A DNA stretch of 64,000 nucleotides from Bacillus sp. UNC41MFS5 (GTDB taxonomy: Bacteria > Bacillota > Bacilli > Bacillales_B > DSM-18226): the NCBI RefSeq assembly GCF_000686805.1, contig NZ_JMLP01000021.1, forward strand, positions 16,598-80,597, read 5' to 3'. The position numbers and the translations under genes were made by a program. Positions 47,837-57,943 of the stretch are shown here, piece after piece. Every line of letters starts with the position of its first letter. Positions within the stretch are counted from its first letter, which is position 1. The notes beneath the pieces are model-generated. The model was given only the letters and a program-made list of their open reading frames with translations. It was not told where the DNA came from and made no database searches.

Positions 47837-48671
47837 CTTCCTAGCCAACTCTAGGCGTTTTAATACCTCATCAACTGGGGTTGATAAGGAAATGGTTTTG
47901 GTATCAGATAATAATGCGTTTCTGATGATTTGGGAGTGATAAGTTCCTTCAAATTGATCGAAATTTCCGGCTGCCAACAAATTCACGAACAAAATCATTC
48001 GCTGGATTCGTTAAGAATTCGTGTGGGGTTCCTATTTGAATGATTGCTCCTTCTTTCATCACACAAATACGGTCTCCTAACTTCATAGCCTCTTTACATA
48101 ACATGTGTAACAAAAACAATTGTTTTTTTAAGTTTACGTTGAATTTCTAGTAAATCTTCTTGCAATTTTTTCAAGTGCACTGAACGGTTCGTCCATCAAG
48201 ATAATTTCAGGTCCGCAGCTAAAGCTCTTATTACACCTACTCGTTGTTGTTGTCCACCTGAAAATTCACTAGGTTTACGAATTCGATATTCTTTGGGGTC
48301 GAGCCCCACCATATTAAGTAATCATCAACACGAGCAGCAATCTTTACTTTGTCCCAATTTTTAAGTTCCGGTACAACGGCGATATTTTCAGCAATTGTCA
48401 TATGTGGAAAAAGCGCAATTTGCTGTAGCACATACCCAATATTCCAACAAAGTTCATTGATGTCATAGTCACTTATTTTCCTTCCAGTAATAAGAACCGC
48501 ACCTTCTGATAATTTAATGAGCCGGTTGATCATTTTTAATGTAGTTGTTTTTCCAGAGCCGCTGGGACCGATTAAAACAAAAAATTCACCTTTCTTTATC
48601 TCTAAATCTATAGACTTTACGTTAAAGGTCCCATTAGGGAATTTTTTCGATACTTGTTGAAATCGAATCAT
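47837..48671 (-). pseudogene. Osmoprotectant ABC transporter ATPase remnant (OpuBA/OpuCA type)
   Basis: Intact for the first part from ATG 48671 (FQQVSKKFPNGTFNVKSIDLEI, Walker A GPSGSGKTT, Q-loop VLQQIALFPHMT). Several frame changes follow: [20 protein letters not shown] near 48200-48290, MDEPFSALEK near 48190, then a degraded stretch, [16 protein letters not shown] near 47950 and a piece of CBS domain (IIRNALLSDTKTISL). At least three shifts, so clearly a decayed gene. Confidence 0.75.
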
Positions 48672-49656: not shown

Positions 49657-50451
49657 TTATTCTACTCCCTGAATGCGCTCCTGATGGGTATAAACATTAA
49701 ATCCGTTAGCTCGGATAAAGCCAACTGCTGTAATTCCTAGTTCCTCTGCTAAATCTAGGGCAAGATTGGTAGGTGCAGATTTTGATAGAATAATCCCGAC
49801 TCCAATTTTGGCTGCTTTTAGTAACACCTCGGATGAAATTCGGCCACTGAAAGCTATGATTTTATCTTTTAGAGGTATTCGGTTAATCAAGCAATAGCCA
49901 AATAGTTTATCAAGGGCATTATGTCGGCCGATATCTGTTCTTGCTGCCACAATTCCATCCTTCGTACATAGCGCTGCATTATGGACCCCCCCCGTCTGTT
50001 GAAAATGTGAAGAACTTTCCTGCATTTGCTTCATTAACTCACGACACTGTTCCGGTGTAACCGTCATTCTTGTCATCACCGTTTTAGCTGTCTTCACATC
50101 GTTATGAAAGTAAAATTGCCGCCCTTTTCCACAACAAGAACCAATAAATCTTTTAGAATGGAAATCTTTTTGAATCGAATGTTTATTAACTAGATCAACA
50201 TAAGCAAAACCCTTTTCTTCATCGATGTGGATCGATTGAATATCTTGGTAGACTCGTATCACACCTTCTGAAGCTAGGAAGCCAACCACCAATTCCTTCA
50301 ATTCAGAAGGGGTACATACCATGGTGGCAAACTCCGTCCCATCTAAAATAATTGTTAAGGCAGATTCGACTGCAATGTCATCCTCTTCCTCGATGAAGTT
50401 TTGTCCATTATACTTGACAATGTTTTGAGAAGTAGTGATTTCCTTTAACAA
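49657..50451 (-). CDS. fdhD: Formate dehydrogenase accessory sulfurtransferase FdhD
   Basis: 264 residues from TTG 50451 (AAGGGG eight bases upstream). FdhD passes sulfur from a cysteine desulfurase to the molybdenum cofactor of formate dehydrogenase. The functional cysteines are in FIGSCCGKGRQ; TGGVHNAALC, RTDIGRHNALDKL and SGRISSEVLLKAAKIG are hallmark blocks that bind the cofactor. It follows directly the molybdoprotein gene on the same strand, its likely client. Confidence 0.95.
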   Translation of the reverse strand: MLKEITTSQNIVKYNGQNFIEEEDDIAVESALTIILDGTEFATMVCTPSELKELVVGFLASEGVIRVYQDIQSIHIDEEKGFAYVDLVNKHSIQKDFHSKRFIGSCCGKGRQFYFHNDVKTAKTVMTRMTVTPEQCRELMKQMQESSSHFQQTGGVHNAALCTKDGIVAARTDIGRHNALDKLFGYCLINRIPLKDKIIAFSGRISSEVLLKAAKIGVGIILSKSAPTNLALDLAEELGITAVGFIRANGFNVYTHQERIQGVE

Positions 50452-50484: not shown

Positions 50485-52842
50485 TTAACCAACTTCTGTT
50501 TCAAGATCAGCAATCGGCTTTTCTAGATATTGAGTATCTTTCCGTGCATGATATCGTTCTGCTTTCTCCACATTAACCGTGATGTTGTAATCTGGAATGC
50601 CGGCAAATTTCTCATAACGCCCGCGCGGCAGCAAATAGTTACCCTCTGGGAAATGAACTTCTAAATTTCCTTGCGCAATATCAACAAACTTAGCCGTACC
50701 TTGGAAGACGCCAAAGCCGTTATAAACAACAATTCCTTCACCTTCAGCAATGCTTAATTTTTGCCCATCCACAGGACTCATTAAAATATCATAACGACCG
50801 GCACCGTTTAACGGATCCACTTCTTTGTATACCATCGAGTTAAACTGCTTGCCACGGCGAGAGGTAATAATAAATTGTTCTGGTTTTTTATTTAAATCCG
50901 GGATATCAACCGGAATTAAAGTACCTCTGCCATCCGTAGTTGGACAAATTCCATCTTCACATAGCCAAGCGCCGCCCCACTGGAACACGTCTCCTTGCTT
51001 TTTCAAATGCTGGATTCCATCGTAATCAGGGTTTGCTTTGGCAATTTCTTCACGAATGGCCTGACCGTCAGCAAACTCAACCAAATGAGCCGTTTCTGGT
51101 TTCACCCGCTTCGCAAGATCCAGATAAATCTTCCATTCTGCACGAGCTTCTTCTAACATGTTTTTGTTTCCAGAAATTTCAGGAGAGAAGTAAACCATCC
51201 GTTCTGTTGATGTACTCGTGCCCCCACCTTCTTGCTCATAACGCGTTTTCGCTGGTAACACAATGACGGCTTCCTTCGCATCAACTAACGTCGATGAGTT
51301 GAAAATAATATCTTGATGAACGCGAATCTCCAGTTCGGATAAGGCTTGTTCAATAAAATCAGGGTCTGGCATCGTTTCTAAGAAATTACCTCCAGAAAGG
51401 TAATATAATTTCACTTTCCGCTCATGATCTTCTGGAAGAACTATGTTTTCTAGTGTGACGCCAACGATATCACCCTGCCAGTTTGGCAGGTCAAATCCCC
51501 AAAGCTTTTCGATTCGTTCTACATTTTTTTCATCCCAGCCTCCGCCAGGTAAAACAAACGGGTCTGCCCCCATTTCTCCGCTGCCTTGCACACTTGAGTG
51601 TCCACGGAACGGCATAAGTCCCGCGTGCTTTCGCCCTAAGTGTCCACGCAGGAGTGCCAGGTTTGCGACTTGAGAGATATTGTCTGTCGCAAAAGAGTGC
51701 ATCGTCAGTCCAAGTGCCCACGCATATACCGCGTTTTTGCTGTTTGCTAGAAGTTCAGCTAATTCAATGATTCGTTCTTTTGAAACGCCTGAAGACTCGA
51801 TGATATCTTCCCAAGATTGTTCTTGGACTTTTTTCTTCAGTTCTTCGTAACCGTTTACATGCTCCTCTACGAACTCATGGTTAATTGCTGAACCATATGC
51901 TTTTTCCTCCATATCAAACCAATGCTTAATGATTCCATGCATAAAGGCAATATCCCCGCCGATGTTGACTTGATAGAAGTCATCGGCAATTTTTGTTCCG
52001 AATAACGCGGACTCAGGGTTTGAAGGAATCCAATACTGGTCCATGGCTGGTTCGCGGTATGGGTTAACCACAATGATCTTGGTCCCTTTTTTCTTTGCTT
52101 CAAGCATATACTTTGAAGATACAGGTGATGAGTTCGAAGCGACACTTCCCCAAAATAATAAGACATCTGTTCCAATCCAATCTAGATAATTGGATGTAGA
52201 AGCCCCCACACCAATGGAACGTTTTAAAGCTGTTTTACTGGGAGCGTGACAAATACGGGAAGCGTTATCAATATGATTGGTCCCAAGAAAACGCGCAACT
52301 TTGGCCGCAACATAATAGCTTTCGTTTGTAATCCCTCGAGCGGTTAAATAAAAAGCATATTGTTTCGGATCCAACTTTTTCATTTTTTCTGCAATGAGAT
52401 TCATTGCGTCATCCCAAGTAATCCGTGAAAATTTACGTTCCCCTTTGCGTCGAATCATTGGATAGGGAATCCGACCCAGCTTACGAAGTTCAGTGCTATC
52501 ATATTTCTTTAGTTCATCAATGTCTGCATGCAGAATTTCAGGTTGAATCGCAGGCATTGTATTTAGCCGAAGGACATTCAAACGTGTGGTGCAAACGTGT
52601 GGACCATCCAATGTTTGGTCATATAACCCAGATACACCAAGTGCACAACCGTCACAAACCCCTTTCGTTATAATCCGTGTAGCATAGCCGATATTATCTT
52701 TATTATCCCAAGCGATTTTCATCGTATCGCGGATATGCTGTGGTTTAATCTTTCCTAAACCAAAAGGAATTGGACTTACCCAGTATTTAGGAGCTGGTAA
52801 CTTTGCTTTTTTTTGTGGTCCAGGATGTTGTGTTTTCCCCAT
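50485..52842 (-). CDS. FdhF/YdeP-type molybdopterin oxidoreductase (formate-dehydrogenase-like)
   Basis: 785 residues from ATG 52842; AAGGAGG is eight bases upstream. It has the molybdopterin-binding domains (ITWDDAMNLIAEKM, FWGSVASNSSPVSSKYMLEAKK, LLRGHLGRKHAGLMPFRGHSSVQG) and a C-terminal dinucleotide-binding fold (PEQFIITSRRGKQFNS). The N-terminal cysteines (VCDGCALGV ... HVCTTR) are fewer than in a full 4Fe-4S FDH, matching the YdeP subgroup; ICHAPS may provide the Mo ligand. Coupled to fdhD, so FdhD-dependent. Physiological substrate uncertain: formate is likely but unproven. Its leader holds an RNA element and terminator at 52888-52974. Confidence 0.88.
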   Translation of the reverse strand: MGKTQHPGPQKKAKLPAPKYWVSPIPFGLGKIKPQHIRDTMKIAWDNKDNIGYATRIITKGVCDGCALGVSGLYDQTLDGPHVCTTRLNVLRLNTMPAIQPEILHADIDELKKYDSTELRKLGRIPYPMIRRKGERKFSRITWDDAMNLIAEKMKKLDPKQYAFYLTARGITNESYYVAAKVARFLGTNHIDNASRICHAPSKTALKRSIGVGASTSNYLDWIGTDVLLFWGSVASNSSPVSSKYMLEAKKKGTKIIVVNPYREPAMDQYWIPSNPESALFGTKIADDFYQVNIGGDIAFMHGIIKHWFDMEEKAYGSAINHEFVEEHVNGYEELKKKVQEQSWEDIIESSGVSKERIIELAELLANSKNAVYAWALGLTMHSFATDNISQVANLALLRGHLGRKHAGLMPFRGHSSVQGSGEMGADPFVLPGGGWDEKNVERIEKLWGFDLPNWQGDIVGVTLENIVLPEDHERKVKLYYLSGGNFLETMPDPDFIEQALSELEIRVHQDIIFNSSTLVDAKEAVIVLPAKTRYEQEGGGTSTSTERMVYFSPEISGNKNMLEEARAEWKIYLDLAKRVKPETAHLVEFADGQAIREEIAKANPDYDGIQHLKKQGDVFQWGGAWLCEDGICPTTDGRGTLIPVDIPDLNKKPEQFIITSRRGKQFNSMVYKEVDPLNGAGRYDILMSPVDGQKLSIAEGEGIVVYNGFGVFQGTAKFVDIAQGNLEVHFPEGNYLLPRGRYEKFAGIPDYNITVNVEKAERYHARKDTQYLEKPIADLETEVG

Positions 52843-52887
52843 TTTCATTTCCTCCTTAATCATGTCAATTGCTATTTTTCCAATAAA

Positions 52888-52942
52888 AAACCACCTAAGA
52901 CTATATTCATCCGATAAAACGGACAAATTGCTCTAGGTGGTT
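52888..52942 (-). terminator. Terminator between DUF2294 gene and fdhF-like gene
   Basis: On the minus strand AACCACCTA(GA) pairs with TCTTAGGTGGTT, with an inner TCCG/CGGA hairpin, followed by TTTTT. It follows the conserved RNA element at 52939-52974 and could be an attenuator for the molybdoprotein gene as well as the DUF2294 terminator. Confidence 0.75.
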
Positions 52943-52974
52943 AGTCTTTAACAGGGTCGCTGTCAAGTGCCAAC
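52939..52974 (-). ncRNA. Conserved 36-nt RNA element, copy B (before the fdhF-like gene)
   Basis: Ungapped match of 27 of 36 bases to 53527-53562. Core on the minus strand: ACAGCGACCCTGT hairpin, flanked by GTTGG on the 5' side and AACC at the 3' end, which is also the beginning of the terminator stem. Candidate cis-acting regulatory RNA. Confidence 0.6.
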
Positions 52975-53005
52975 AATATGTAGTTGAATGATGTTTCCAT
53001 TGAAA

Positions 53006-53407
53006 TTAACTTTTTACGTTAAACTTTTCCTCAATATCTTGATCAAACACGAAGATTGACATCCCCATGTCGTCTTCAATATCAATATCCACAAAGACAC
53101 GAATGAATTTTGCACCAAGTAGTTCTTCCATTTCCTGAGGATAGTTTTTTTTATAAATCTCCTTGACCATTTCAGTACGAGCAGATCGTAACATTTGTTT
53201 CCCATCTTCAGCTGAAGCAATAAATTTTTCAATGGGAGATAAATTTCCTTCTAATTCACAAATTGCCCAGTTCTTACAAAACTTTGTTCGAACTTGACTA
53301 GGGCCTTTACCCATATGACGTTTTCTATAGGCGCGAACAATGTTACTAAATTCTGCTTCATATTTATTCACATGACTCAACTCACTTGTTTTACTCAATG
53401 TTATCAC
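53006..53407 (-). CDS. DUF2294 domain protein
   Basis: 133 residues, start GTG 53407 (weak ribosome site; GTG at 53371 is an alternative). The DUF2294 pattern is recognisable: VRAYRKRHMGKGPSQVRTKF, AICELEGNLSPIEKFIASAEDGKQMLRSARTEM and a C-terminal FIRVFVDIDIEDDMGMSIFVF. Function unknown. It lies upstream of the formate-dehydrogenase-like gene and has a leader with two copies of an RNA hairpin and a terminator, so both genes seem to answer to the same signal. Confidence 0.8.
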   Translation of the reverse strand: MITLSKTSELSHVNKYEAEFSNIVRAYRKRHMGKGPSQVRTKFCKNWAICELEGNLSPIEKFIASAEDGKQMLRSARTEMVKEIYKKNYPQEMEELLGAKFIRVFVDIDIEDDMGMSIFVFDQDIEEKFNVKS

Positions 53408-53493
53408 TGTGTTAATGATGTTTATACTATAAGTATACTATATAACGGAATAAAAATAAAAACCATTGTAATAGATTCTTTGAAGATTCCTTA

Positions 53494-53530
53494 AAAAAGG
53501 CGGAATCCCATTTGAATCATTACAACGGTT
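53494..53530 (-). terminator. Leader terminator upstream of the DUF2294 gene
   Basis: Minus strand GGCGAACC pairs with GGGATTCCGCC (one bulge), followed by TTTTTT. No minus-strand gene ends just upstream, so it is likely an attenuator in the leader. Confidence 0.7.
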
Positions 53531-53562
53531 CGCCTCAAACAGGTTCGCTGTTACGCACCAAC
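53527..53562 (-). ncRNA. Conserved 36-nt RNA element, copy A (before the DUF2294 gene)
   Basis: Minus strand AACAGCGAACCTGTT hairpin preceded by GTTGGTGCGT and followed by GGCGAACC, which begins the terminator stem. Same layout as copy B at 52939-52974. Confidence 0.6.
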
Positions 53563-53611
53563 TGTTATAATATTTTTCCCTTGTCATATTAGTTAAACCT
53601 TTTAACCGATC

Positions 53612-53626
53612 AACAGGTTCGCTGTT
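53612..53626 (-). ncRNA. Extra copy of the AACAGCGAACCTGTT hairpin
   Basis: Identical 15-nt hairpin 60 nt upstream of copy A in the same leader, giving a tandem arrangement. It lacks the GTTGG flank, and no terminator directly follows it. Confidence 0.5.
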
Positions 53627-53765
53627 TCGTATTAAAAGAGACTCATATGTAAATTTCACAAATTGTTCACATTTGACATCTTAATCATAGCATGGTAATG
53701 CAATCAGCACAATAGAAAATATTTTCAATTCCTTTTAAACCTGAATACAAAAAACTTAACAATAA

Positions 53766-54691: not shown

Positions 54692-57600
54692 ATGAGAAAA
54701 AAGGTAACAAAACAAATTACAGCATTAACTCTCATCTTTACCGTAATCCTGTCTCTATTTAGTAGTTTGGCTTCTGCCTCACCTGTAAGGTCAGTAAAGG
54801 AAACAAAGGAACCGCCTTCAAAGGAGATCGTAAAACTTACTCCAAGTGAATCGACAGTCTCGTTCTCTCTTTCTAAAGGCAAACACGATTTAAAGGCTGA
54901 AGCAGAGTATAAGGATGGTTCCAAAGCTGATGTTACAGCAGAAGGAGAATGGACTTCACTAGATGAGAAAGTTGTTACAGTTGCTAGTGGAGTGCTAACA
55001 GCAGTGAATGCAGGGTCTACACATGTACAATTCAGTCTTGGTAATGCAGTGTTAAACGTTGAAGTAAATGTTACTCAAGATGCGCGTGTTTCAAGTCAAA
55101 AGCTAAATCCTTCAGAAGGGAAAAAAATTGTATCGCTCGTTTTAGCGGCGAATCAAATTACCTACATAAATGAAGGGGAAAAGCGTCCTATCGCATTGAA
55201 AGCGCTTTATAGCGATGGCTCGATGGAAGACGTAACTAAATTAGCTACATGGGAATCAAGAGATCCTTCGATTGTAAAGGTTGAAGGTGGCGTATTAAAA
55301 GGGATATCACCAGGTGATGTTTCATTGAAAGTAACCTACTCAACTTTTCCACAAATAAATTTCTTTGCTTCGATAAGAGATATTCCTGAAAATGTAACGG
55401 GGCTGTACCTGTCGGCTGACATGTTGAGGTTAGAAACCTCTGATAAGTCGGTTCAAGTAAGTGCCATTACAAAGAACCCCATGTTGGGGAATAAAGAGGT
55501 TACTTCTTTAGGAAGTTGGACAACGACAGATCGAAATGTAGCTACGGTAAGTAAAGATGGTCAAATAACCCCAGTTGGAATCGGCCAAGCATATATTTAT
55601 TTTAAGTATGATAAGTTGGTTGGTGCTGTACTTGTTAATGTTGTTAAGCCTACAAAGCTTATAACTGATGAACCTACAGTTGAACTAATGCCAGGACAAA
55701 ATTGGCCTGTTAATTTAACCGAAGTATTCACTAATGGAATATCAGATGGTGGTATGACTTTAGTTGAAAATGTAAATCCTAATGATGTCAAATGGACAGT
55801 CGAAGATAACAGCATTGCAACGGTTACTGATTCAGGATATATCATTGGAGGTAAGACAGGTAAAACGTTTGTGACAGCTTCCTATCGTTCAGATGTTCTT
55901 CCTCCAGTTAAAATTGAGGTTACTGTCACCAATAAGCTTACAACTCCTAGAGTTATTGGTTTGACAGCTTCTCAACCAAACCTCTCTTTAGGAATAGGTG
56001 AAGAAACGCCTATTAAAATAAATGCGATTTATAGTGATGGGAGTACTGAGGATGTAACAGGTTCCGTTGAATTGTACTTCGACAATTTCCACGTAGCTTC
56101 AGTTTCCCGAAAATATGGTGGTGAATCAAAAGTTATTGGTCAATTAAGTGGCACAACTGTCTTGCATGCTATCTATAATGATTTTCGTTACTTTGTAGAT
56201 ATCCCGGTGGCAGTCACGGATAAAGACGGTCAGAAGCAGGCTCCAAACCCTGAATCAATTTCTGTTACACCAGATATGAAAAATATGGTAGTAAATCAAC
56301 AGCAGCAATTAGAGGTAAAAACGACCTATTCAGACAGATCAAATTCGACTTCATATGCGGTATATAAATCATCTAATCCTGATGTTGTTAAAGTAAATAA
56401 AGATGGCCTACTTACAGCTGTAGGCACTGGTACAACAATTATTACCGTAGATAGCTCTGGATACTCAAAGCAGATTTCAATTGTCGTTTCAAATGAACCT
56501 TCTAAAGATTTTGCAAATAAAATTGTTGATCTGATTCCTAGTGAAAATGATATCACCTTTAGTTTATCTGAGCACACGCATTCGTTCTCTGTTAAAGCAA
56601 AATATAAGGATGGTTCAACTGCTGACGTTACATCAGACTCAAGATTCACAACATTAGACCCGGACAAAGTTACAGTTAAGAATGGGGTCCTTACAGCAGT
56701 AGCAGCAGGAACAACGCAGGTACTTATCGATTACGGAACAAGCACAAAAATCTTGAATGTTTCAATTCTTTCTGGGAATGATGCGTTAATAAAAGATTTA
56801 AAAATTGAGTCCTTGCTTGCTTCCTCCTTGGATGTTGTTGTTCAAAAAGATAAGCTTTATCCAGTACATGTTTTTGCTCAATACAATGATGGAACTCAAA
56901 GAGAAATAACGAATTCAATTCAATGGACAACAGATGAACCTACAGTTGTAAGTGTTAAAGACGGGAAATTTATTGGAATGAATACTGGAAAAACGACGGT
57001 TAGTGCAACAATTGCAGGTTTCTCTTCTATTAAAATTCCAGTAAAAGTACAAGATCAAGCTGGACCATTAAATTTAGTAGGAATTGTTAGCGCGGGGATG
57101 ATAATACAGCCTGAAGCAGGAAATATAGTAGAAGCGATAACTAATAATAGCAATGGGATGATATTACACCCTGAAGAAGGAACTATTGATGCGAACGCGT
57201 TTGCTGAATATACAGATCATAATATCGTACAGGTTGATACAGAAGGGAAATGGGAATCTTCCGACGAAAGTGTAGCAACTGTTGACCAGAACGGAGTCAT
57301 TACATGGGTCGGCCCTGGTGAAGCATACATCTGGTTCAATTATTATGGTTTGAGAGATGCTATTTGGGTAAGAAACACTAAACCTGTAGATTTATATTGG
57401 GCTGAAAACAATAAATGGACAACTAGAAATGTAATGTTAGAACCTAATAAGTCCACTGACATCTCAATTAATGGCTTCTTTGGTCATCATGGCAGAGATG
57501 GAAATTGTGATTGTTATAATCTTACTAGCAAAGCAAAATTTACGGTGGCGGACGAATCGGTTGCAACGATTTCTGCTGATGGACATATCATCGCTCACTC

Positions 57601-57943
57601 TGTAGGAAAAACGACAATAACTGCTACTGTTTTTGGAATGTCAAAGACAATTGATGTTGAAGTTGTAGCAAAGTATCCTACATTTATTAGGGGGATAAGT
57701 TCTTCGCCGGGTTATATCGTAAATTCAGCAGGCTCAACAAATGAAGTAGTCATAAATGCTATGTCCAGCGATGGAACGATAAAAGACGTTACAGCTGATG
57801 TCAAATGGAATAGTTCTAATTCGGAAGTAGCTGAAGTGACCGCTGATCATAAGATCCTAACGAAGTCTGAAGGAGCCGCTGTTATCATTGCGGAATATGG
57901 TGGATTTAAAATCATTATTCCTGTTATCGTTAAACCTAATTAA
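54692..57943 (+). CDS. Large exported protein of Ig-like (BIG_2) repeats
   Basis: 1083 residues, AGGAGG before the ATG. A Sec signal peptide (residues 1-30, ending SLASASP) is followed by about ten to eleven BIG_2-type units of 80-100 residues, each with the pattern YxDGSxxDVT, W-x(3)-D-x(2)-VATV, G-x(2)-TA-x(2)-G-T-x-V. Units at about residues 46-128 and 608-690 are close copies, showing internal duplication. No LPxTG, S-layer or transmembrane anchor and no catalytic domain follows. The region near residues 930-945 has a unique Cys pair (GNCDCYN). It acts outside the cell, possibly in surface or matrix binding; ligand unknown. Confidence 0.88.
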   Translation: MRKKVTKQITALTLIFTVILSLFSSLASASPVRSVKETKEPPSKEIVKLTPSESTVSFSLSKGKHDLKAEAEYKDGSKADVTAEGEWTSLDEKVVTVASGVLTAVNAGSTHVQFSLGNAVLNVEVNVTQDARVSSQKLNPSEGKKIVSLVLAANQITYINEGEKRPIALKALYSDGSMEDVTKLATWESRDPSIVKVEGGVLKGISPGDVSLKVTYSTFPQINFFASIRDIPENVTGLYLSADMLRLETSDKSVQVSAITKNPMLGNKEVTSLGSWTTTDRNVATVSKDGQITPVGIGQAYIYFKYDKLVGAVLVNVVKPTKLITDEPTVELMPGQNWPVNLTEVFTNGISDGGMTLVENVNPNDVKWTVEDNSIATVTDSGYIIGGKTGKTFVTASYRSDVLPPVKIEVTVTNKLTTPRVIGLTASQPNLSLGIGEETPIKINAIYSDGSTEDVTGSVELYFDNFHVASVSRKYGGESKVIGQLSGTTVLHAIYNDFRYFVDIPVAVTDKDGQKQAPNPESISVTPDMKNMVVNQQQQLEVKTTYSDRSNSTSYAVYKSSNPDVVKVNKDGLLTAVGTGTTIITVDSSGYSKQISIVVSNEPSKDFANKIVDLIPSENDITFSLSEHTHSFSVKAKYKDGSTADVTSDSRFTTLDPDKVTVKNGVLTAVAAGTTQVLIDYGTSTKILNVSILSGNDALIKDLKIESLLASSLDVVVQKDKLYPVHVFAQYNDGTQREITNSIQWTTDEPTVVSVKDGKFIGMNTGKTTVSATIAGFSSIKIPVKVQDQAGPLNLVGIVSAGMIIQPEAGNIVEAITNNSNGMILHPEEGTIDANAFAEYTDHNIVQVDTEGKWESSDESVATVDQNGVITWVGPGEAYIWFNYYGLRDAIWVRNTKPVDLYWAENNKWTTRNVMLEPNKSTDISINGFFGHHGRDGNCDCYNLTSKAKFTVADESVATISADGHIIAHSVGKTTITATVFGMSKTIDVEVVAKYPTFIRGISSSPGYIVNSAGSTNEVVINAMSSDGTIKDVTADVKWNSSNSEVAEVTADHKILTKSEGAAVIIAEYGGFKIIIPVIVKPN

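Follow-up and report, generated by a model that had tools for sequence, protein, structure and literature searches.

A conserved RNA hairpin overlapping intrinsic terminators precedes the genes for a DUF2294 (MpsC-family) protein and a formate dehydrogenase (FDH)-like molybdoenzyme in a 64,000-nt stretch of contig NZ_JMLP01000021.1 of Bacillus sp. UNC41MFS5 (the window, to whose full length its coordinates refer and whose hairpins, terminators, and operon genes lie on the minus strand). Across related genomes, inheritance of the hairpin goes with that of one subfamily of DUF2294 proteins, both where the protein gene is in cis and where it is in trans. Another subfamily is accompanied by a second hairpin type. 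We consider it probable that the hairpins are bound by DUF2294 proteins, which would thereby antiterminate genes for FDH and transport; here we infer the physical binding, antitermination as the direction of control, and the signal.

Three copies of a hairpin in the window

In the direction of transcription, the locus comprises hairpin C, hairpin B, a terminator, the DUF2294 gene, hairpin A, a second terminator, the gene for the FDH-like molybdoenzyme, and the FdhD gene (Table 1). A first-pass annotation of this DNA had noticed a 36-nt repeat, and elements A and B indeed align over this length without gaps and with 27 identities. It had also described an ACAG-CGAMC-CTGT hairpin, three copies of which are present before the DUF2294 and FDH genes, two of them abutting intrinsic terminators. 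Exact matches to the core are located at 52951, 53539, and 53613, all inside 675 bases. With up to two mismatches, the expectation for the window is 1.12 core matches, and 7 of 100 shuffles had at least three; the three copies found, however, are exact and clustered.

Folding of both leaders placed AACC at the 5′ end of the terminator in copies A and B, as claimed, and the third copy, which makes the leader before DUF2294 a tandem, sits within a longer hairpin. The pairing of GTTGG with CTAAC, which had been assigned to "copy B," is real but belongs to the copy that precedes FDH; the DUF2294 copy has GCGAACC on its 3′ side, and a weaker outer helix is predicted for it. The terminator before DUF2294 has a AACCGTTGTAATG... 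stem and ends in TTTTTATTTTT, the folded stretch reaching −27.8 kcal/mol.

Conservation, fold, and terminator overlap of the type-1 hairpin

The best 80 of the 129 loci from a scan with the FDH protein, mostly from Bacillaceae and relatives, were used for comparison. A loose form of the core was found upstream of FDH in 75 of them (none in L008, L044, L055, L075, and L077), and element A is decayed in L078 and L008. Tandem C/B leaders occur in 67 of the 80 related loci. The tandem is followed by a transporter gene in seven of the nine loci with frames listed, then in most by DUF2294, and finally by element A and FDH; the transporter of L002 is an SfMCT-like protein of the major facilitator superfamily (NF049980, 443 bits; cut-off, 320), and the window has no transporter between the tandem and DUF2294. 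In 24 of the 67 tandem leaders, C is preceded by a TATRAT box at a distance of 36 to 62 bases. In 34 of the 67, a site resembling a catabolite-responsive element (cre), TGNAANCG, is positioned between C and B (e.g., in L013, whose cores are at 2841 and 2905), which suggests an additional layer of carbon-catabolite control.

The 63 type-1 A elements that were aligned (alignment A1) have the approximate consensus GGTTnGGYACTTG-RYAG-CGNNC-CTGY-TAAAGACTnAACCACC, in which the AGCG and CCTG of the core, including the loop G, are invariant. The first stem pair is G-C in 39, A-U in 11, and G-U in 11 sequences; CTT/AAG is changed to CTC/GAG in one sequence, and 19 of the 62 distinct A elements have U-G in place of C-G at stem position 2. 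In the alignment, 90.3% of the cells pair compared with 86.5% in shuffles, and covariation amounts to 0.157 compared with 0.111, neither value being reached in any of 500 shuffles; pairing was at most 51% when the alignment was slid out of register. Double-change pairs (3 versus 2.9) and pair types (7 versus 7.5) were not in excess over the shuffles. An unguided RNAalifold run on A1 recovered the inner stems and missed the outer helix. The C/B alignment (63 rows) displays changes on both sides in 6 of 12 predicted pairs.

A perfect stem of 7 to 14 bp that starts in the AACC strand and is followed by a T run was present in 62 of 72 A elements, and 63 of 2,000 random positions passed the same test. 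Inspected by eye, nine of the ten misses are stems with G-U pairs, and in the tenth (L072) the stem lacks a clear T run. Since a strand of the outer helix is common to the terminator, hairpin A and the terminator are mutually exclusive there, as in RAT (ribonucleic antiterminator)-type antiterminators (PMC3369931; PubMed Central [PMC] numbers refer here and below to excerpts of the articles).

In the comparison with Rfam that the annotation had proposed, no family matches the element: none of the 4227 models reached its gathering score in the window, the two matches around the element at an E value of ≤10 both lay far below gathering, and a search of 10 related loci gave only an unrelated S-adenosylmethionine riboswitch and one sub-threshold match. 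A dispersed, nonregulatory repeat, which the annotation had named as the finding that would overturn its reading, was rejected because the six strong matches inspected in other genomes (L138 and L140 to L144) precede the same FDH gene. Model R1 of element A matched 17 of 20 FDH genomes at an E value of ≤1. The annotation's claim of a conserved, terminator-linked element common to DUF2294 and molybdoenzyme leaders is therefore borne out, in a one-carbon setting, and the covariance search and listing of downstream genes that it had suggested place the element before FDH and also before FdhD or transporter genes.

Co-inheritance with DUF2294 subfamily 1

A single set of 299 genomes from the order was searched for R1, DUF2294, and FDH. 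At an E value of ≤0.1, R1 matched 62 genomes, of which 56 with at least 39.9 bits were kept and six with weak matches (18.3 to 20.2 bits) were dropped; of seven weak matches inspected (L145 to L151), four had no core and three had it inside an open frame. The DUF2294 subfamily of the operon (subfamily 1) was delimited at ≥190 bits, the next matches dropping to 133, and FDH orthologs were delimited at an E value of ≤1e-200. With these cut-offs, element A is present in 56, subfamily 1 in 60, and FDH in 81 genomes, and the element A genomes are a subset of both other groups. Among the 81 FDH genomes, 56 possess both RNA and DUF2294, none the RNA alone, one DUF2294 alone, and 24 neither (Fisher test ignoring kinship, 1e-19). 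All four subfamily-1 genomes without element A carry the C/B tandem before a transporter-DUF2294 unit. When PF10057 was tested in 25 genomes, the three without a match were those of L044, L075, and L077, all of which are RNA-less; the RNA-negative genomes G039, G048, G071, and G145 contain DUF2294 proteins of other kinds.

The association also holds in trans. In five Cytobacillus-like genomes (L015, L016, L017, L022, and L026), the RNA remains at the transporter and FDH genes while the subfamily-1 gene is located at another site, the surrounding 3.3 kb of which contain no motif; A. pseudofirmus OF4 and the L072 genome also have the gene at another site, behind its own hairpins. The RNA label requires 10 changes on a 90-row FDH tree (FastTree only). 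The pair test used 87 rows (L019, L020, and L023 were left out), with L227 set as RNA-positive by hand and L018 set as DUF2294-positive from an untranslated 119.7-bit match and a 79% Bacillus sp. J33 protein (P0082). In nine independent pairs differing in the RNA, DUF2294 differed in the same direction in seven, in the opposite direction in none, and not at all in two (p = 0.016).

In a class-wide set of 299 genomes, R1 matched 24 at an E value of ≤0.001, three of which were already known and 17 of which were inspected. DUF2294 (66 to 79% identity) lies within 3 kb in 14 of these 17 loci, L280 and L291 lack it within the 3-kb stretch examined, and some A elements precede FdhD or a transporter. 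Locus L293 contains two adjacent DUF2294 copies (45 to 46% identical) beside a transporter with a type-1-like hairpin (GTAGTGACCCTGC), a pair that constitutes a natural test of loop specificity. In G071 (contig C1, 4375689-4380234; L223 and L301), an FDH gene without a type-1 hairpin lies directly upstream of two-domain DUF2294 genes.

A second hairpin type and DUF2294 subfamily 2

A second DUF2294 subfamily (about 45 to 50% identical) often adjoins FdhD or FDH genes, and together the two subfamilies are represented in 111 of the 299 order genomes (E ≤ 1e-25). The loci of subfamily 2 feature a similar, type-2 hairpin before canonical FDH genes, TGGATTGGT-n3-TTAGYA-RGNNN-TGCTAA-n-ACTATTCCACC, followed by a terminator and mostly situated in the divergent leader; the strict pattern was found in 13 of 20 subfamily-2 loci and a looser form in two more. 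Both types have a helix that overlaps the terminator, a TGG/CTA helix with a near-invariant G-U, and a 5-nt loop in which position 2 is G; in four Geobacillus-like type-2 rows, the loops comprise 6 nt and the G occupies position 3.

A type-2 model built from 16 sequences matched 49 of the same 299 order genomes at an E value of ≤0.01. Subfamily 2 is present in all 43 genomes with type-2 matches of at least 40 bits; overall, 46 genomes contain both, three the RNA only (all <32 bits), and seven the protein only. Among 54 type-2 matches, 45 lie within 1.5 kb of the subfamily-2 gene, five at about 10.6 kb, and one at 3.7 kb, and three weak matches have no subfamily-2 gene on their contig. Downstream of the hairpin in 20 type-2 loci inspected, an FDH alpha-like frame was found in 17 cases (the one tested matched TIGR01591 with 838.6 bits; cut-off, 666), DUF2294 itself in one, and a Gly_transporter-family gene in one, one case being doubtful.

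In L268, a type-2 hairpin and terminator precede a Gly_transporter-family gene (family tested) with DUF2294 beside it, and L243 and L254 resemble this case by their N-terminal frame; a one-carbon link outside FDH is possible in these loci. The DUF2294 genes of a third, YbcI-like branch (L159, L160, L162, L163, and L180) are located directly behind terminator leaders of the form AAATCGGTATATT...AATATACCGTTTTTT, and this branch may possess a hairpin target of its own; no terminator of that form is seen in L158 and L161. Geobacillus-like FdhD or transporter leaders downstream of DUF2294 (L239, L242, L244, and L247) contain a conserved hairpin, GTTGGTTTCGCTGCAG-ANNNG-CTGGGYGCAAACTACCGCC, followed by a terminator.

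The DUF2294/MpsC protein

DUF2294 proteins are annotated as MpsC-like or as "uncharacterized protein YbcI" and share the conserved motifs RK...GKGP, GN(L).P.E, and ART. The AlphaFold2 model has an alpha/beta architecture with a predicted local distance difference test (pLDDT) of 91.1 and a predicted template modeling score (pTM) of 0.85. A PDB sequence search, the PDB and viral libraries of Foldseek (no match reaching an E value of 0.001), and VIA-align (Z < 8) yielded no similarity exceeding the background stated for the tool; these negatives are weak evidence either way and do not establish a new fold. B. subtilis YrhF is presumably the DUF2294 protein encoded beside yrhED, as we infer from a PF10057 match in B. 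subtilis, from locus L257 (whose protein is 99% identical to one of B. velezensis), and from the gene neighborhood. The function of YrhF has been called unknown, and it is a target of RoxS (PMC8216469). In Staphylococcus aureus, growth is unaffected by deletion of mpsC, and MpsAB does not depend on MpsC (PMC6689103); the family owes its name to a transport role for which the S. aureus member is not needed.

Proposed mechanism and alternative explanations

According to the mechanism that we propose, the DUF2294 protein of the operon would bind the hairpin, which would consist of the outer helix, the CTT/AAG and RYAG/CTGY stems, and the loop with its fixed G at position 2. The bound hairpin would be locked, so that its 3′ strand AACC could not start the terminator and polymerase would continue into the DUF2294/transporter and FDH genes; on unbound RNA, the terminator would prevail. 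DUF2294 would in this way also govern its own operon, presumably in answer to a one-carbon or redox signal, and the tandem may function in recruitment followed by hand-over, a scheme put forward for EutV (PMC8934654). The one-carbon compound is a guess from the regulated genes; since the FDH operons of B. subtilis are seemingly not induced by formate, forCE2 responding to growth phase and ResED (PMC8808070), the cue could also be a different one.

The annotation had suggested a small riboswitch, perhaps for formate, molybdate, or a one-carbon compound. In a small-molecule riboswitch, the 36-nt hairpin would directly bind formate, bicarbonate, molybdopterin, or a similar ligand and compete with the terminator, DUF2294 being another product of the pathway. 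The highly conserved bases of the loop and internal loop, the position before genes, the terminator overlap, and the one-carbon genes downstream would suit such a device. However, the DUF2294 subfamily of the operon, be its gene in cis or in trans, is a better guide to the presence of the RNA than FDH is: FDH orthologs up to 84% identical that lack a matching DUF2294 also lack the RNA (L055/L229; L222 and L223), the RNA is also located before FdhD or transporter genes and, for type 2, before a Gly_transporter-family gene, with DUF2294 as the usual partner, and the two hairpin types track two protein subfamilies. This pattern fits a protein-binding antiterminator, and we regard an antiterminator read by a protein as likelier and a riboswitch as unlikely; what stands of the annotation's overall interpretation is a conserved, shared RNA element without an Rfam match, not its identity as a riboswitch. 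It is slightly less probable still that the hairpins are recognized by a different RNA-binding protein, the gene for which lies elsewhere, and that DUF2294 is only co-regulated as a passenger. The architecture does resemble RAT and ANTAR targets, and a BglG-type CAT_RBD protein occurs in 28 of 30 RNA-positive genomes, but the other two have no CAT_RBD match, an ANTAR protein exceeded the cut-off in only one of the 30 (falling below it in 29), and neither domain explains the matching of subfamily to hairpin. A DNA operator serving a repressor or activator, to which the palindromic core, the TATRAT box, and the cre-like site could be attributed, is very improbable in view of the U-G for C-G exchange at stem position 2, the asymmetric conserved loop, and the terminator overlap.

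Several observations weigh against binding of the hairpins by DUF2294 proteins. L008 and L230 have no intact RNA even though their genomes carry subfamily 1. One of the three weak type-2 matches without a subfamily-2 gene on the contig, that in G255, looks genuine (hairpin, terminator, and FDH), but this genome has only two-domain DUF2294 proteins. Type-2 covariation is weak, and the type-2 seeds were chosen near subfamily 2, so that the link is partly a matter of selection. More tentatively, the whole DUF2294/MpsC family could consist of antitermination proteins that bind RNA hairpins and serve a one-carbon or redox signal, its subfamilies having co-diverged with their hairpins and YrhF controlling yrhED (ForCE2); we hold this wider proposal to be somewhat less probable than its opposite.

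If the proposed mechanism is correct, a family without known activity gains a role and a new class of RNA-binding regulators, with a confidently predicted structure that has no clear match to a solved one, is joined to a new pair of regulatory RNA motifs. It would also explain the switching of FDHs in bacilli, for which the inducing cue is unclear (PMC8808070). Regulation by a hairpin and DUF2294 is not described in the open-licence PMC literature searched (preprints excluded), in which neither regulation involving DUF2294, nor a formate riboswitch, nor a function of yrhF was found. The excerpts of PMC2965389 and PMC8632094 mention neither formate nor FDH, and those of PMC11109978 and PMC2864571 contain only the fhsA (formate-tetrahydrofolate ligase) motif and only the crcB and pfl motifs, respectively.

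Features of the window

The features are compiled in Table 1, with ATG at 52842 and GTG at 53371 assumed as the starts of FDH and DUF2294. The FDH is 97% identical to that of Neobacillus sp. SuZ13, which points to a Neobacillus-like genome. An apparently shortened ABC (ATP-binding cassette)-transporter ATPase frame of only 144 residues is located at 48237-48671, and a 1083-residue protein with Big_2 immunoglobulin-like domains is encoded at 54692-57943, divergent from the operon.

Table 1. Hairpins, terminators, and genes of the DUF2294-FDH locus
Feature	Coordinates	Strand	Basis
Element C, 5′-most hairpin of the tandem (CTTTTAAT..ACAG-CGAAC-CTGT..GGTTAAAAG)	53599..53638	-	Fold, −9.4 kcal/mol
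Element B, second tandem hairpin; its 3′ AACC opens the terminator	53527..53562	-	36-nt alignment, fold, alignment A2
Intrinsic terminator before DUF2294 (AACCGTTGTAATG... / ...ATTACAATGGTTTTTATTTTT)	53450..53530 (bounds approximate)	-	Fold
DUF2294/MpsC-family protein (PF10057), proposed RNA-binding antiterminator	53006..53371	-	Pfam, 117.3 bits (cut-off, 23); co-occurrence
Element A, putative antiterminator hairpin (GTTGGCACTTG-ACAG-CGACC-CTGT-TAAAGACTAACC)	52939..52974	-	Alignment A1 (63 sequences), model R1
Intrinsic terminator, first four bases (AACC) common with element A	52885..52942	-	Fold, −23.9 kcal/mol
FDH-like molybdoenzyme, FdhF/YdeP family (TIGR01701)	50485..52842	-	798.6 bits (cut-off, 582); Pfam
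FdhD, formate dehydrogenase accessory sulfurtransferase	49657..50451	-	Pfam, 286 bits; TIGR00129, 259.5 bits (cut-off, 140.9)

Comparison with known systems

Riboswitches of the preQ1-I type are small and linked to terminators, and the element resembles them in size and in its competition with a terminator; it differs in having no Rfam match and in that its presence tracks a protein subfamily, not a gene of the pathway. The proposed binder belongs to the same Pfam family, PF10057, as MpsC of S. aureus, for which the excerpts of PMC6689103 mention no RNA role. The targets of ANTAR proteins (EutV, NasR, and AmiR) are small tandem hairpins recognized through a loop with a conserved G, the second of which overlaps the terminator (PMC3369931, PMC8934654), traits that the present hairpins share or, as regards recognition, would share. 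Element A does not conform to the definition of an ANTAR target, a six-nucleotide loop in which position 1 is A and position 4 is G (PMC3369931): its loop is CGNNC (5 nt) in 63 of 63 aligned sequences. Unlike ANTAR targets, moreover, B has loops of 5 to 6 nt, and element A is usually single. From RAT, the element is distinguished by its different sequence, by its conserved loop with G at position 2, and by its association with a 120-residue DUF2294 protein devoid of CAT or PRD domains. It resembles the RAT of BglG, SacY, and LicT, a 29- to 30-nt hairpin that overlaps a terminator and is stabilized by the bound protein (PMC3369931), in that the hairpin overlaps the terminator, as was seen for 62 of 72 A elements under a strict stem test.
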